A stretch of DNA of 33,315 nucleotides from Planctomycetota bacterium (GTDB lineage: Bacteria; Planctomycetota; Phycisphaerae; SM23-33), in assembly GCA_030635145.1 (NCBI GenBank), contig DAOVZK010000024.1:1-33315 (forward strand), read 5' to 3'. The number at the start of each line of letters is the position of its first letter. Position 1 is the first letter of the stretch. This document shows, piece after piece, positions 24,528 to 29,548 of the stretch. Made by a program: the position numbers and the translations under genes. The notes below the pieces were generated by a model that saw nothing but the letters and a program-made list of their open reading frames with translations, was not told the origin of the DNA and ran no database searches.

Positions 24528-24555
24528 TTGACAACTATTTCGGAGGAGGTATAAT
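24528..24555 (+). promoter_or_regulatory. Consensus promoter before the cimA leader RNA
   Basis: TTGACA (24528-24533), 16-nt spacer, TATAAT (24550-24555): both boxes match the consensus exactly. The predicted start is about 24562. The spacer holds GGAGGAGG, which has no start codon at a usable distance. Confidence 0.85.
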
Positions 24556-24561
24556 TTTCGG

Positions 24562-24755
24562 TGGCCAGGTATATGAAAGAGGTAATGATGCGGAAGTGCA
24601 AAACAAATTGCAAGAGCGTGACTGTGCAGGAAACGCTCACTCTCCGCGCAGGTGGTATTACCAGCTACCCCTTGTAGTATGCCTCAGGTGTAGCGGACGC
24701 TGTATTTTTTTATTACATGTGCCCTGAGGTTTTACCCCTCAGGGCATTTTTTTTA
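24562..24755 (+). ncRNA. Structured RNA with terminator/antiterminator, before cimA-valS
   Basis: About 195 nt from a consensus promoter to a perfect terminator. Helices seen: TGCAA/TTGCA (24597-24612), GAGCGT/ACGCTC (24614-24638), both closed by GCGGA/TCCGC (24590-24594 with 24643-24647) as a three-way junction, then GGTAAT/ATTACC (24581-24586 with 24657-24662). CCTCAGG (24682-24688) can pair with CCTGAGG (24723-24729), which is also the left arm of the terminator, so an antiterminator form is possible. This is the layout of a riboswitch or attenuator; cimA starts about 220 nt further on. A 34-codon frame (24573-24677) overlaps the helices but has no run of Ile, Leu or Val codons. I match it to no known RNA family. 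A free small RNA is the alternative. Confidence 0.7.
24720..24754 (+). terminator. Rho-independent terminator of the leader RNA
   Basis: Ten perfect pairs, TGCCCTGAGG/CCTCAGGGCA, 7-nt loop TTTTACC, then eight T. The best terminator in the window. Confidence 0.92.
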
Positions 24756-24974
24756 TTACTGAAGTGTTTCCCCTGGATTTTATCGGCTTGGTTTCTTTTG
24801 ATTTCCAAACGTTTATTTGCGTCTGAAAAAAGATGGCCGGGGAAATGCGATAAAAGCTTCTGCCGGGGCAATTTTCTAACTTACAGCACGAGGATGCTTG
24901 GCGTTCTGCGAGCATATCGTGTACTATTACTACCGATTTAACCTTTGATTACAGATAATGTGGAGCCATATGCA
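24756..24974 (+). other. Region between the leader terminator and cimA
   Basis: About 220 bp with no gene and no clear second promoter, so read-through of the terminator may be needed to express cimA-valS. In-frame TTG at 24945 could extend cimA by ten codons but lacks a ribosome site. Confidence 0.45.
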
Positions 24975-26579
24975 ATGACTACCCAAAAGACAAGAATACA
25001 AACATACGATACGACACTGCGAGATGGCACCCAAACTCAGGGCGTGAGCCTTTCACTGAAGGACAAGCTCGAAGTCGCCGAGGCGCTCGACGCTTTGGGC
25101 GTGGACTACATAGAGGGCGGATATCCGCTGAGCAATCCCAAGGACGAGCAGTTTTTCGCGGAAATCCGCAAGATGACTTTCCGCAATGCGAAGATCGCTG
25201 CTTTCGGCATGACGCGCCGTAAAGAAATTAAGGCCGCCGACGATGTCGGTATGCAGGCACTGCTAAACAGCGAGGCCCCTGCCGTTACCATCGTCGGAAA
25301 AAGCTGGAACCTGCACGTTACCGATGTGCTGCGGGTTAGCGAGGACGAAAATTTGCGAATGATATTCGACTCGGTCGAGATCATGGCAAAAGCCGGCCGC
25401 GAAGCAATCTACGACGCCGAACATTTTTTCGACGGATATCGCGCCAACCCGGACTTCGCCATGAAAACCCTGCAAGCTGCCCACGACGCCGGAGCACAGG
25501 CGTTGGTTTTGTGTGATACCAACGGTGGATCGCTGCCTGAGCAGATTACGCAGATATTGCAGGAAATCCGTAAGGTTCTCCCCGACGCCGTTCTGGGCAT
25601 CCACTGCCATAACGACTCCGACCTTGCCGTCGCCAACACCCTCGCCGCTGTCCGTGCCGGCGTCACGCAAGTTCAGGGCACCATAAACGGAATCGGCGAA
25701 CGCTGCGGAAACGCCGACTTAGTGTCGGTGCTGGCGAACCTTGGAATAAAGATGGGCTACGACGTATTGAAGGATGGCTCGATGGAAAATCTGACATCGA
25801 CGTCGCGGTTCGTATACGAAATCGCAAATTTGAACTTCCGCGAAGGCCAGCCGTTCGTCGGATCGAACGCATTCGCGCACAAAGGCGGCATGCACGTCCA
25901 CGCCGTTCAGCGAAACGTGGACACCTACGAGCATATCAGCCCGGACGCCATTGGCAATAAGCGACGCATTCTCGTCAGCGAGCTTTCGGGCATTAGCAAC
26001 ATCGCCGCTACCGTGCCGGCAAAGTTTAACATCGCCGAAGACAAAACCGCCCAACGCCACATCCTCAAAACCATCATGGATCTGGAAAACGAAGGTTACG
26101 AATTCGATGCCGCCGAGGCGAGCTTCGAAATGATCGTTCGCAAGACCCTCGGTGGAAAATGGTACCGCAAGCTGTGGGATCTCGATCATTATCGGTGCGT
26201 GATTTTGCGGCGGCACAACGAAGAAGCGTTGACGGAAGTCACGACTAAGCTGACGATGGACGGCGAATCGCTTCACACTGTAGCTGAAGGCGACGGGCCG
26301 GTCGACTCGCTGATGAATTCGCTCAAGCTCGCACTTCGCAAAAAATATCCCAGCGTCGACGACCTTCATTTGGTGGACTATCGCGTACGGGTAATCAATA
26401 CGTCAGCCGAGACCGCCGCCAGTGTTCGCGTGGTTATCGACTGGCGAGATGCGTCGAATGATACGTATTTCGGGTCGGTCGGTGTTGATGAAAATATCAT
26501 CGATGCTTCGTGGCTGGCGATTGTCGACGCCATCGAGTTTAAGCTGCTAACGGTGGAAGAACTAAGGACGCAAGCATGA
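24975..26579 (+). CDS. cimA: (R)-citramalate synthase
   Basis: About 534 residues. It condenses pyruvate and acetyl-CoA to citramalate, the first step of the threonine-independent route to isoleucine. Catalytic TIM barrel of the LeuA family: TYDTTLRDGTQ at the start, HCHNDSDLAVANTLAAV with metal-binding histidines, and GTINGIGERCGNADLVSV. The linker (about 300-390) and a C-terminal LeuA-type allosteric domain (about 400-530) follow. The length and the RDGTQTQGVSLSLKDKLEVAE start match the CimA branch rather than 2-isopropylmalate or homocitrate synthase, but substrate cannot be proved by eye. ATG at 24975 with GGAG 9 nt upstream. The stop overlaps the valS start by 4 nt (ATGA). Confidence 0.9.
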   Translation: MTTQKTRIQTYDTTLRDGTQTQGVSLSLKDKLEVAEALDALGVDYIEGGYPLSNPKDEQFFAEIRKMTFRNAKIAAFGMTRRKEIKAADDVGMQALLNSEAPAVTIVGKSWNLHVTDVLRVSEDENLRMIFDSVEIMAKAGREAIYDAEHFFDGYRANPDFAMKTLQAAHDAGAQALVLCDTNGGSLPEQITQILQEIRKVLPDAVLGIHCHNDSDLAVANTLAAVRAGVTQVQGTINGIGERCGNADLVSVLANLGIKMGYDVLKDGSMENLTSTSRFVYEIANLNFREGQPFVGSNAFAHKGGMHVHAVQRNVDTYEHISPDAIGNKRRILVSELSGISNIAATVPAKFNIAEDKTAQRHILKTIMDLENEGYEFDAAEASFEMIVRKTLGGKWYRKLWDLDHYRCVILRRHNEEALTEVTTKLTMDGESLHTVAEGDGPVDSLMNSLKLALRKKYPSVDDLHLVDYRVRVINTSAETAASVRVVIDWRDASNDTYFGSVGVDENIIDASWLAIVDAIEFKLLTVEELRTQA

Positions 26580-29548
26580 CAACGGAAATGGAAAAAGTTT
26601 ACGATCCTCGCGGCGTTGAGGCCCGCGTTTACGAGCAGTGGATTGCGTCGAAGGCATTTGAGGCCGACCCCGCAGACGAGCGGGCACCGTTTTGCATGGT
26701 CATTCCACCCCCGAACGTGACGGCGGCGCTGCACCTTGGTCATGCACTCAACAATACGCTGCAGGATATTCTGATTCGATTCCAACGTATGAATCATCGT
26801 GCTACGCTCTGGATGCCGGGCACCGACCACGCCGGTATCGCCACGCAAACCGTCGTCGAAAAACGAATCCTCGCCGAGGAAGGCAAACATCGCAAGACAG
26901 ACTTTACTCGTGACGCATTTATTAAAAGAATCCAGGAATGGAAAGACCAGTACGAAGCGACGATTCTCAACCAGCTCAAGATGATGGGTTGCAGCTGCGA
27001 TTGGGATCGCACGCGTTTCACGATGGACGACGTTTGTGCCAAGGCCGTCCGCGAAACTTTCTTCAAACTTTTCGCCGACGGGCTGATCTATCGCGGCAAG
27101 CGGCTGGTCAATTGGGACCCGGCCACGCAAACCGTTCTCGCCGATGACGAAGTCGAACACGAAGACGTTCATGGGCATTTCTGGTACCTGCAGTACCCGC
27201 TGGAAAAAGCAGTAACCGTTGACGGGCAAATAATCGAGCATGTCACCGTGGCCACCACTCGCCCGGAAACGATGCTCGGAGACACCGCCGTCGCCATGAA
27301 TCCTCGCGACCCGCGGGCCGATGCGCTAGTCGGGCAAACCGTGATTTTGCCGATTGTCGGGCGAAAGATTCCGATCATTGCCGACGAACACGTCGTGCTG
27401 CCAAACCCCGAAAGCGACGACGAAAAAGCAAAATTCTCGACCGGATTCCTGAAAGTCACACCGGCCCACGACCCCGACGACTACCAGATCGGTTTGCGTC
27501 ACGACTTACCAATAATCAACATCATGGCCCCGGACGCGTCGATCTCCAAAGATCACGGCTGGGATGACTGGGCCGAAATCGACAATCCTGACGTCGAAGC
27601 CATCCTCGGTATGGATCGGTTCGAAGCGCGGGCGGCGATTGTGGAATTCTTCCGCACCGAAAATCTGCTGGAAGAAGTTCGCGACTACACGCACCCCGTC
27701 GGGCACAGCTATCGGTCGCACGTGCCGATCGAACCGTACCTTTCCGACCAGTGGTACGTCGCCGTCAAGAAACCCATTGCGGATTTCGGATCGCGGATTG
27801 CGGATTTGAAGATTGAAACAGAACAAAAAGAAACAAAAGAATATGGGATTGCTACGTGTATCGCAGGGACGGACGTGCCCGTCAATTCACTGGCCGGCCT
27901 CGCGCTTACCCCCCTGCTGGAAGGTAAGCTGACGTTTGTACCCGAGCGCTACGCGACTAACTACAAACTATGGCTGAAAAATCTCCGCGATTGGCCAATC
28001 TCCCGCCAACTCTGGTGGGGACACCAGATTCCGGTGTGGTCGAAGGCGGGCGAGCACGAAACCCCCTCCGAAAGTGAAACTATTTCGCAAGTGTTCCAAA
28101 CCGATGACGGGCCGGTGACATATACGTGCGTCAAGCCAGGTTTGGAAAAACTCGAAGCTACACTCGAGGCCGATGGTTGGGTTCGCGACGAGGACGTTTT
28201 GGATACATGGTTTTCGTCTGCACTTTGGCCGTTCAGTACGCTCGGATGGCCGGACAAAACGCCCGAGCTGGAAAAATTTTATCCGGGCAACGTGCTGTCG
28301 ACAGACCGCAGCATCATTACGCTGTGGGTTTCGCGAATGGTGATGATGGGGCAGTACTGCGTGGGCGACATTCCGTTTACGGAGGTGTTCATTCACGCGA
28401 CGATCCAGGACGGGCAAGGCCGAAAGATGTCCAAGAGCCTCGGTAATGGTGTCGACCCGCTGGAAATTATCGAATCACACGGTACCGACGCCATGCGCTA
28501 CACCCTCACGAGCATGACCACGCAAACGCAAGACGTCCGCATGCCGCTGGAGGTGATGACACTCCCCAGTGGCAAGAAGGTCACCACATCACCGAAGTTT
28601 GACATCGGCCGTAACCTTTGCAACAAACTGTGGAACGCCTCGCGGTTTGCCATGATGAAAATTTCCGGTGCCCCCGCATGGAGCATTATTAAACCGCGTG
28701 AAAACCTCGCCGACGCTTGGATACTCTCGCGACTGAACTCCACAATTCGCGACGTGACCAACGCGATGAATTCTTACCGCTTCAGCGAACTTACCGAGAA
28801 GCTCTACCACTTTTTGTGGGACGATTTTTGCGACTGGTATCTCGAAATTGCGAAGGTTCGCATCGCAGCTGGGGAAGATGCGCCCAAGGCGATCGTGGCC
28901 CACGTGCTGGATATGATTCTCCGCATGCTTCACCCGACCATGCCGTTTATCACCGAGGCCATCTGGGAGCAGTTAAACCAGATCGTTCCTGTTCGCGGGC
29001 CGGGGGATGTACCAGCTGACAAATTACTGATTACCGCACGTTGGCCGATGGCCGACGGGCAGGCGATCCAGCCGCACACTGAAACCAGCTTCGCGACTCT
29101 CATGGATATGGTTCGCGGAATTAGAAACGTTCGTACGCAGCACAATGTGGTTCCCGGGCTGAAAGTTGACGTGCAGGCGGAAATCTTAAACGACGCCCCC
29201 GCCGGTGAAATTCTCAAAAACAACGTCGACACCATTCGGGCGTTGGGAAATCTGAACGAAATTACAATATCGAATAAACCGATCACACCGCCGGTAAATT
29301 CCGCGATGATTACGTCGGGCGGAGTGAAACTTTACATTGTGGGAATTGTCGACTCCGCCGCCGAACGTGTGAGACTCGAAAAACAGCTCGCCACGCTGCA
29401 AAAAGGCATCAGCGGTGTTGAGGGCAAACTCAACAACGAAAAATTTGTCAGCAATGCTCCCGACGAAGTTGTTTCGCGAGAGCGCCAGCGGCTGGAAAAA
29501 ATGAAGCAGGAAGCCCTCACCGTTCAGCAGGCGATTGAAGGGTTATAG
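26576..29548 (+). CDS. valS: Valyl-tRNA synthetase
   Basis: 990 residues. Class I synthetase: the HIGH-type motif is HLGH in PPPNVTAALHLGHALN (about 43-58), KMSKS is in GRKMSKSLGN (about 615-624), and the editing domain lies between them. PGTDHAGIATQ, RDWPISRQLWWGHQIP and the C-terminal coiled coil (last 65 residues, KQLATLQKGI...) are ValRS features. Between KKPIA and TFVPERY (about 400-450) there are about 37 more residues than in T. thermophilus-type ValRS. Part is encoded by a tandem DNA repeat at 27776-27807. Starts inside the cimA stop, so it is coupled. The TAG stop is also the first base triplet of an inverted repeat. Confidence 0.95.
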   Translation: MTTEMEKVYDPRGVEARVYEQWIASKAFEADPADERAPFCMVIPPPNVTAALHLGHALNNTLQDILIRFQRMNHRATLWMPGTDHAGIATQTVVEKRILAEEGKHRKTDFTRDAFIKRIQEWKDQYEATILNQLKMMGCSCDWDRTRFTMDDVCAKAVRETFFKLFADGLIYRGKRLVNWDPATQTVLADDEVEHEDVHGHFWYLQYPLEKAVTVDGQIIEHVTVATTRPETMLGDTAVAMNPRDPRADALVGQTVILPIVGRKIPIIADEHVVLPNPESDDEKAKFSTGFLKVTPAHDPDDYQIGLRHDLPIINIMAPDASISKDHGWDDWAEIDNPDVEAILGMDRFEARAAIVEFFRTENLLEEVRDYTHPVGHSYRSHVPIEPYLSDQWYVAVKKPIADFGSRIADLKIETEQKETKEYGIATCIAGTDVPVNSLAGLALTPLLEGKLTFVPERYATNYKLWLKNLRDWPISRQLWWGHQIPVWSKAGEHETPSESETISQVFQTDDGPVTYTCVKPGLEKLEATLEADGWVRDEDVLDTWFSSALWPFSTLGWPDKTPELEKFYPGNVLSTDRSIITLWVSRMVMMGQYCVGDIPFTEVFIHATIQDGQGRKMSKSLGNGVDPLEIIESHGTDAMRYTLTSMTTQTQDVRMPLEVMTLPSGKKVTTSPKFDIGRNLCNKLWNASRFAMMKISGAPAWSIIKPRENLADAWILSRLNSTIRDVTNAMNSYRFSELTEKLYHFLWDDFCDWYLEIAKVRIAAGEDAPKAIVAHVLDMILRMLHPTMPFITEAIWEQLNQIVPVRGPGDVPADKLLITARWPMADGQAIQPHTETSFATLMDMVRGIRNVRTQHNVVPGLKVDVQAEILNDAPAGEILKNNVDTIRALGNLNEITISNKPITPPVNSAMITSGGVKLYIVGIVDSAAERVRLEKQLATLQKGISGVEGKLNNEKFVSNAPDEVVSRERQRLEKMKQEALTVQQAIEGL
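27776..27807 (+). repeat. In-frame direct repeat inside valS
   Basis: ATTGCGGATTT occurs at 27776 and 27797, 21 nt (seven codons) apart, giving IADF...IADL in the protein. Strings such as gcggattgcggattt look like intergenic simple repeats seen in planctomycetes and related phyla, so the segment may be an insertion that kept the frame. Confidence 0.5.

Follow-up and report, generated by a model that had tools for sequence, protein, structure and literature searches.

A probable leader-peptide transcription attenuator upstream of cimA–valS in Phycisphaerae-type planctomycetes

The enteric ilvGMEDA, ilvBN and leuABCD leaders are ribosome-mediated attenuators of branched-chain amino acid operons. 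Sense codons that match the downstream gene are a hallmark of leader-peptide attenuation, and in textbook attenuators of the trp type the ribosome itself covers the 5′ strand of the protector helix. Here we analyzed a DNA segment of 33,315 nucleotides (the window) from a draft planctomycete genome of 2.4 Mb, in which it is contig C55, and we conclude from its sequence and that of relatives that an element ahead of the cimA–valS operon is very likely a ribosome-mediated, leader-peptide transcription attenuator. It shares with the enteric ilv and leu leaders a short ORF with cognate codons, an antiterminator opposed to an intrinsic terminator, and branched-chain genes as targets. It differs from them in having no Rfam sequence similarity to them, in its targets (cimA, of the citramalate route, and ileS), in the position of the stop codon, which in relatives sits in the antiterminator strand, and in holding the whole ORF inside the protector helix. 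The 5′ strand of that helix precedes the Shine–Dalgarno sequence, which is also the main architectural difference from the trp-type attenuators: a ribosome translating the ORF has no way of covering this strand, which is not part of it. The element appears to be a topological variant of a known mechanism.

Classical attenuators have been predicted in Actinobacteria for trp, trpS and leuS, along with ilvB leader peptides (PMC1262725). These share sense-codon leader peptides, alternative hairpins and, in some cases, a place before aminoacyl-tRNA synthetase genes with the element described here, but they belong to another phylum and have other sequences, and actinobacterial ileS is controlled by T-boxes and not by a leader peptide (PMC1262725). 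The Corynebacterium ilvBNC leader (ilvB-II motif) exerts uORF-based control of branched-chain synthesis (PMC10272879; PMC11857589) and is set apart, by its description, in genes, phylum and sequence. In function, the enteric ilv/leu leaders and the predicted actinobacterial attenuators are the closest systems. No leader-peptide attenuation of cimA, or in Planctomycetes, was found in the open-access papers searched; a 2010 comparative survey by Lopatovskaya et al. (doi 10.1134/S0026893310010164), cited in PMC4833913, could contain related predictions. With this element, ribosome-mediated attenuation would reach Phycisphaerae-type planctomycetes, a group for which the open-access papers searched describe none; it would also take in ileS and the citramalate route to isoleucine, which is independent of threonine.

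Promoter, leader RNA and alternative helices

A sequence-only reading of the window had described exact TTGACA and TATAAT boxes, about 195 nt of RNA with a plausible three-way junction, a 10-bp terminator with eight T, and a 7-nt segment able to pair with the terminator's left arm instead. Its coordinates and pairings all proved correct (Table 1). The promoter matches the consensus at all 12 positions, whereas shuffled sequence gave 1.4 sites of at least 9/12, and comparable promoters likewise precede many of the relatives' leaders. Transcription would start at about 24562, and the resulting 194-nt RNA has a fold that beats 197 of 200 dinucleotide shuffles (z = −2.4).

Table 1. Features of the leader region and downstream genes, in window positions
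Feature	Position	Strand	Remarks
Sigma-70-type promoter, TTGACA-N16-TATAAT	24528..24555	+	12/12 consensus match; boxes at 24528-24533 and 24550-24555, spacer 16 nt
Strand 0, AGGTATAT, 5′ side of protector helix 0:3	24567..24574	+	Upstream of leader Shine–Dalgarno
Shine–Dalgarno AAGAGG of leader ORF	24577..24582	+	Sequence
Leader ORF, MRKCKTNCKSVTVQETLTLRAGGITSYPL then stop	24588..24677	+	Homologous ORF in about 38 leaders
Strand 1, GCGGA, helix 1:2	24590..24594	+	Directly after start codon
Strand 2, TCCGC	24643..24647	+	Directly ahead of sense codons
ATT Ile codon, near-invariant sense position	24657..24659	+	A and T invariant across leaders
Leader stop TAG	24675..24677	+	Relatives: stop inside strand 3 (GCC[T/C]TAGGGC)
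Strand 3	24677..24688	+	24677-24684 with strand 0; 24682-24688 (CCTCAGG) with strand 4
Second GCGGAC then U7	24693..24711	+	Sequence; may form an additional terminator with strand 2
Strand 4, terminator left arm and antiterminator partner, TGCCCTGAGG	24720..24729	+	
Strand 5, terminator right arm CCTCAGGGCA (24737-24746) and U8 (24747-24754)	24737..24754	+	
cimA, (R)-citramalate synthase-type, HMGL-like and LeuA dimerisation domains	24975..26579	+	Pfam
valS, valyl-tRNA synthetase, overlaps cimA	26576..29548	+	Pfam

Helices 0:3, 1:2 and 4:5 make up the default fold of the window RNA, most of the probabilities exceeding 0.9, and so bear out the three-way junction. In the full RNA, strand 0 pairs with its partner in strand 3 at pair probabilities of 0.85–0.99 and strand 1 pairs with strand 2 at 0.93–1.0; in the latter helix, relatives carry compensatory G-C to A-U changes. 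The terminator 4:5 has 10 perfect pairs. The CCTCAGG segment of strand 3 is complementary to CCTGAGG (24723–24729) within strand 4, so that terminator and antiterminator, which share strand 4, are mutually exclusive in the window and in relatives. These pairings recur in relatives at the equivalent place. The attenuator that had been proposed is thereby borne out as a transcription attenuator in the family, alongside the gene association and leader ORF described below.

Covariation was counted in 21 sequences (set A5) whose elements had been extracted by consensus similarity and not by pairing, except that the window's strand 0 register came from its own fold. Helix 0:3 was 93% paired, against 24–58% in slid controls; six of its nine pairs had changed on both sides, and none of 500 shuffles reached its covariation score. 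Helices 1:2 and 4:5 together were 94% paired with six pairs changed on both sides, and set A3 agrees. The antiterminator 3:4 was also 94% paired (slid controls, 24–59%), but it had just one pair with two-sided change, and its covariation score was equalled or exceeded in 85 of 500 shuffles. It covaries little because its letters are also coding (the stop codon) or bound in the terminator. The helices put forward in the sequence-only reading therefore stand, with compensatory changes in 0:3, 1:2 and the terminator and with conservation of 3:4. All four are retained in the window, whose own compensatory changes include GGTAT:ATGCC and a C-G pair replacing U-G in 3:4.

Promoter, structured RNA and switchable terminator are equally the layout of a metabolite-binding riboswitch, in which the terminator would be the expression platform and translation would be uninvolved; the lack of a codon run in the window alone would also suit it. 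We consider this very improbable. No Rfam riboswitch matches at the gathering score. The stretches between strands 1 and 2 and between strands 2 and 3 vary in length and letters, so there is no conserved aptamer core, the conserved columns being confined to strands 0–5 and the sense codons. A reading frame is conserved (start, Shine–Dalgarno, sense codons and stop), and its codons change with the downstream gene. The riboswitch-like character first ascribed to the RNA gives way to what is conserved, namely a translated leader peptide, gene-matched sense codons and helices around the ORF.

In agreement with the initial view that the RNA was undescribed, no Rfam family matched anywhere in the window at gathering scores. 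Weak matches from a segment search with E up to 10 (trpB, PyrR and Spot 42) fell below the cut-offs; the trpB ncRNA motif (RF04312) scored 33 bits against a gathering score of 59, mainly on the terminator hairpin and U tract, and its upstream structure is not shared. A T-box reading uncharged tRNA-Ile or tRNA-Val directly would suit ileS, valS and cimA, which are the kinds of gene under T-box control, and ileS in Actinobacteria is under T-boxes (PMC1262725). Its probability is nonetheless close to nil: as the sequence-only reading had it, no T-box motif is present, the covariance model (RF00230) finding no match at the gathering score or at E up to 10, and a conserved leader ORF occupies the region instead.

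Distribution and downstream genes

A BLAST-type search of 99 relatives with the 201-nt DNA returned short chance matches only, those examined lying inside coding genes. Upstream of the relatives' cimA we found a shared layout: promoter, GGCACGCAG, Shine–Dalgarno sequence, ATGCGGAC, a variable segment, GTCCGCGCAGGCATTATT, an Ile/Val codon run, CTGCGTGCCTTAGGGC containing the stop codon, then GGCCCTGAGGC...GCTTCAGGGCC-T(n). The window fits this layout, with strands 0–5, the ATG at 24588, the Ile codon and the stop in matching order. A covariance model (R1) was built from 17 leaders, and the 91 bits (E about 1e-20) that it gives the window are partly by construction, since the window is among the training sequences. 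At E ≤ 0.1, R1 matched 29 of 35 same-family genomes (some weakly). In the class it matched 48 of 298 genomes when the limit was E ≤ 0.01, and phylum-wide 2 of 392 when it was E ≤ 0.001; the leader is missing from some relatives. Among hits whose E was about 1e-6 or lower, about 27 stand immediately ahead of cimA, 9 ahead of ileS and 1 ahead of a DAHP synthase gene; hit G265, in the same range, is probably due to chance. Homologues before cimA, which the sequence-only reading had proposed to look for, are thus present in about 27 genomes, and about nine have the leader before ileS. Members reached via cimA include those in Phycisphaerales bacterium fen_1349, Planctomycetota bacterium GSL.Bin20, AS06rmzACSIP_458 and Planctomycetales bacterium CSMAG_2421. 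The model and the coordinates are supplied for what appears to be an unrecorded RNA family, absent from Rfam.

The cimA gene was identified in 53 of 60 genomes, and in 32 of 34 loci the gene that follows it is valS, in the same orientation. We give very little credence to the idea that a small RNA independent of cimA, bounded by its own promoter and terminator, lies ahead of the gene merely by chance. Termination would indeed free a discrete 194-nt RNA, and about 220 nt separate the end of the terminator from cimA in the window; in relatives, however, this distance to cimA or ileS is mostly 20–150 nt, and the element accompanies these genes to different genome positions. A separate cimA promoter had been named as the finding that would point to such an RNA, and none scoring at least 9/12 occurs between the terminator and cimA. 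Nor is the element 6S RNA (RF00013), which we considered for its size and its own promoter and terminator; the genome's only 6S match is elsewhere, on contig C84.

The leaders before ileS, some of them weak, are L097–L104, L108, L110 and L113. In genus g11 (L049, L056) cimA is preceded only by a terminator-like hairpin, GGCCCTGAGG...CTTCAGGGCC, after a repeat-rich gene; two genomes of this genus carry a full leader before ileS. A search for the pattern CTTAGGGC-N-GCCCTGAG revealed no targets outside cimA, ileS and the DAHP synthase case, and its matches in G040, G057 and G063, which have neither leader nor amino-acid gene, look like chance. In the window, a minimal ORF, ATG-CAA-TGA (24971–24979), overlaps the cimA start codon (ATGCAATGA).

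Leader reading frame and sense codons

Between the promoter and the terminator lies a short ORF with a Shine–Dalgarno sequence, for which ATG at 24585 is an alternative start. The sequence-only reading had noted that no run of Ile, Val or Leu codons was present. This holds for the window, whose sense region GITSYPL has one Ile and no Val, but the leader ORF and its Ile codon had been overlooked. Translated from ATGCGG, the relatives' frame gives peptides such as MRTLWDDIPVLVFPAKDAERVRAGIIAIVIVPCVP, ending in runs such as VRAGIIAIVIVPCVP before the stop, and cognate codons near the 3′ end of the ORF are a property of the family.

Isoleucine accounts for 99 of 379 residues past strand 2 (26%) and for 13 of 736 ahead of it (1.8%; Fisher p about 1e-36, only indicative because the leaders are related), and no leader tested lacks an Ile past strand 2. 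Valine rises from 8.4% ahead of strand 2 to 17.7% past it, with the same reservation as to p among related leaders. At least two Val ahead of the last three residues were found in 17 of 26 cimA leaders, compared with 0 of 9 ileS leaders. Val-rich runs therefore appear confined to leaders before cimA–valS and missing before ileS. A leader of the same architecture precedes a DAHP synthase gene (L105 from about 236; L093 from 1501; G070:C47:75835-76006). Its peptide reads ...ALGFWRRWYYFYSFGHGGS before the stop (codons FWRRWYYFYSF), and with its peptide end, GFWRRWYYFYSFGHGGS, it is probably an aromatic amino acid attenuator. The leader is missing at the DAHP synthase gene of a sister genome (L145). 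The contrast between ileS (Ile) and cimA–valS (Ile and Val), together with the one aromatic case, indicates that the codons track the gene on a single scaffold, which is the hallmark of leader-peptide attenuation. As for the branched-chain signal originally suggested, the sense codons and target genes point very probably to isoleucine, with valine in addition for cimA–valS.

Relative to its relatives, among which there is no close relative of its genus, the window has its stop shifted about 9 nt upstream, and because a single Ile codon is left, the sensitivity of this copy, and possibly the exact amino acid sensed, is uncertain. It is unlikely that the element, working in relatives, is in the window species a decayed relic, a fixed partial terminator whose sensing codons have been lost. 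The one Ile codon and the shifted stop would agree with decay, as would the genome's own ileS (C54/C35), where a promoter is present and the leader is missing. Against this, compensatory changes preserve all four helices, promoter and Shine–Dalgarno sequence are strong, and the sole Ile codon occupies the near-invariant position.

The conserved VRAG-I-I end of the peptide might alternatively arrest the ribosome when a metabolite or stress is sensed and so bring about antitermination; RAGP in SecM offers a comparison for such a motif. The RAG peptide is conserved with synonymous third positions in its Ala codon (GCA/GCC/GCG), and the window retains it despite the lost Ile run. We nevertheless find arrest highly unlikely: relatives with otherwise intact leaders have REG, RAR, RDG or RAD in its place, the nucleotides that encode RAG double as strand 2, and codon runs matched to the downstream genes would not be needed for arrest alone.

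Ribosome position and proposed mechanism

Strand 3 lies 24 nt past the Ile codon in the window and mostly 20–38 nt past it in relatives, so that a ribosome at Ile would leave strand 3 free and one at the stop would cover it. Folds were computed for the RNA downstream of the ribosome only, with the polymerase just past strand 4 and 13 nt protected from the A site. A ribosome at Ile gave a predicted probability of 1.00 for 3:4 in the window, and most relatives gave the same; a ribosome at the stop gave 0 in the window, a value that follows from the mask. By computation, then, the Ile position frees the antiterminator strand and the stop position covers it. When the truncated window RNA was folded under the Ile-stall mask with base pairs permitted between RNA on either side of the ribosome, 3:4 did not form; this fold was set aside as uninformative in favor of the downstream-only folds. 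In equilibrium folds the full RNA mostly favors the terminator, and does so even when the ribosome sits at Ile, so the decision would have to be kinetic, as it is in known attenuators.

We propose that polymerase starting at about 24562 would produce the leader RNA with its short ORF. With no ribosome, helices 0:3 and 1:2 would pair, leaving strand 4 free to form the terminator with strand 5. When charged tRNA-Ile is plentiful, the ribosome would reach the stop and cover strand 3, and the terminator would form again. When tRNA-Ile is short (in relatives, tRNA-Val too), the ribosome would stall at the codons just past strand 2 and open helix 1:2, which would in turn open the protector 0:3. Strand 3, thus freed, would pair with strand 4 before strand 5 is synthesized, giving read-through into cimA and valS. 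The ORF, codon bias, exclusive helices, gene association and spacing are derived from sequence, with covariation in all helices except the antiterminator; from these we infer stalling, read-through and the destabilization of 0:3 by a stalled ribosome.

A more specific joint picture is possible, and we offer it tentatively: with the protector 5′ strand outside the ORF, starvation would be relayed only via the nested start-codon helix 1:2; the scaffold would have been re-used with exchanged codons (Ile for ileS, Ile and Val for cimA–valS, aromatic for DAHP synthase); and the window species would run on its single Ile codon or on RAG arrest.

Just past the antiterminator strand, the second copy of strand 1 at 24693–24711 may form a second terminator using strand 2. 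Its GCGGAC-T stretch is also seen in leaders L062–L064, L086 and L038.
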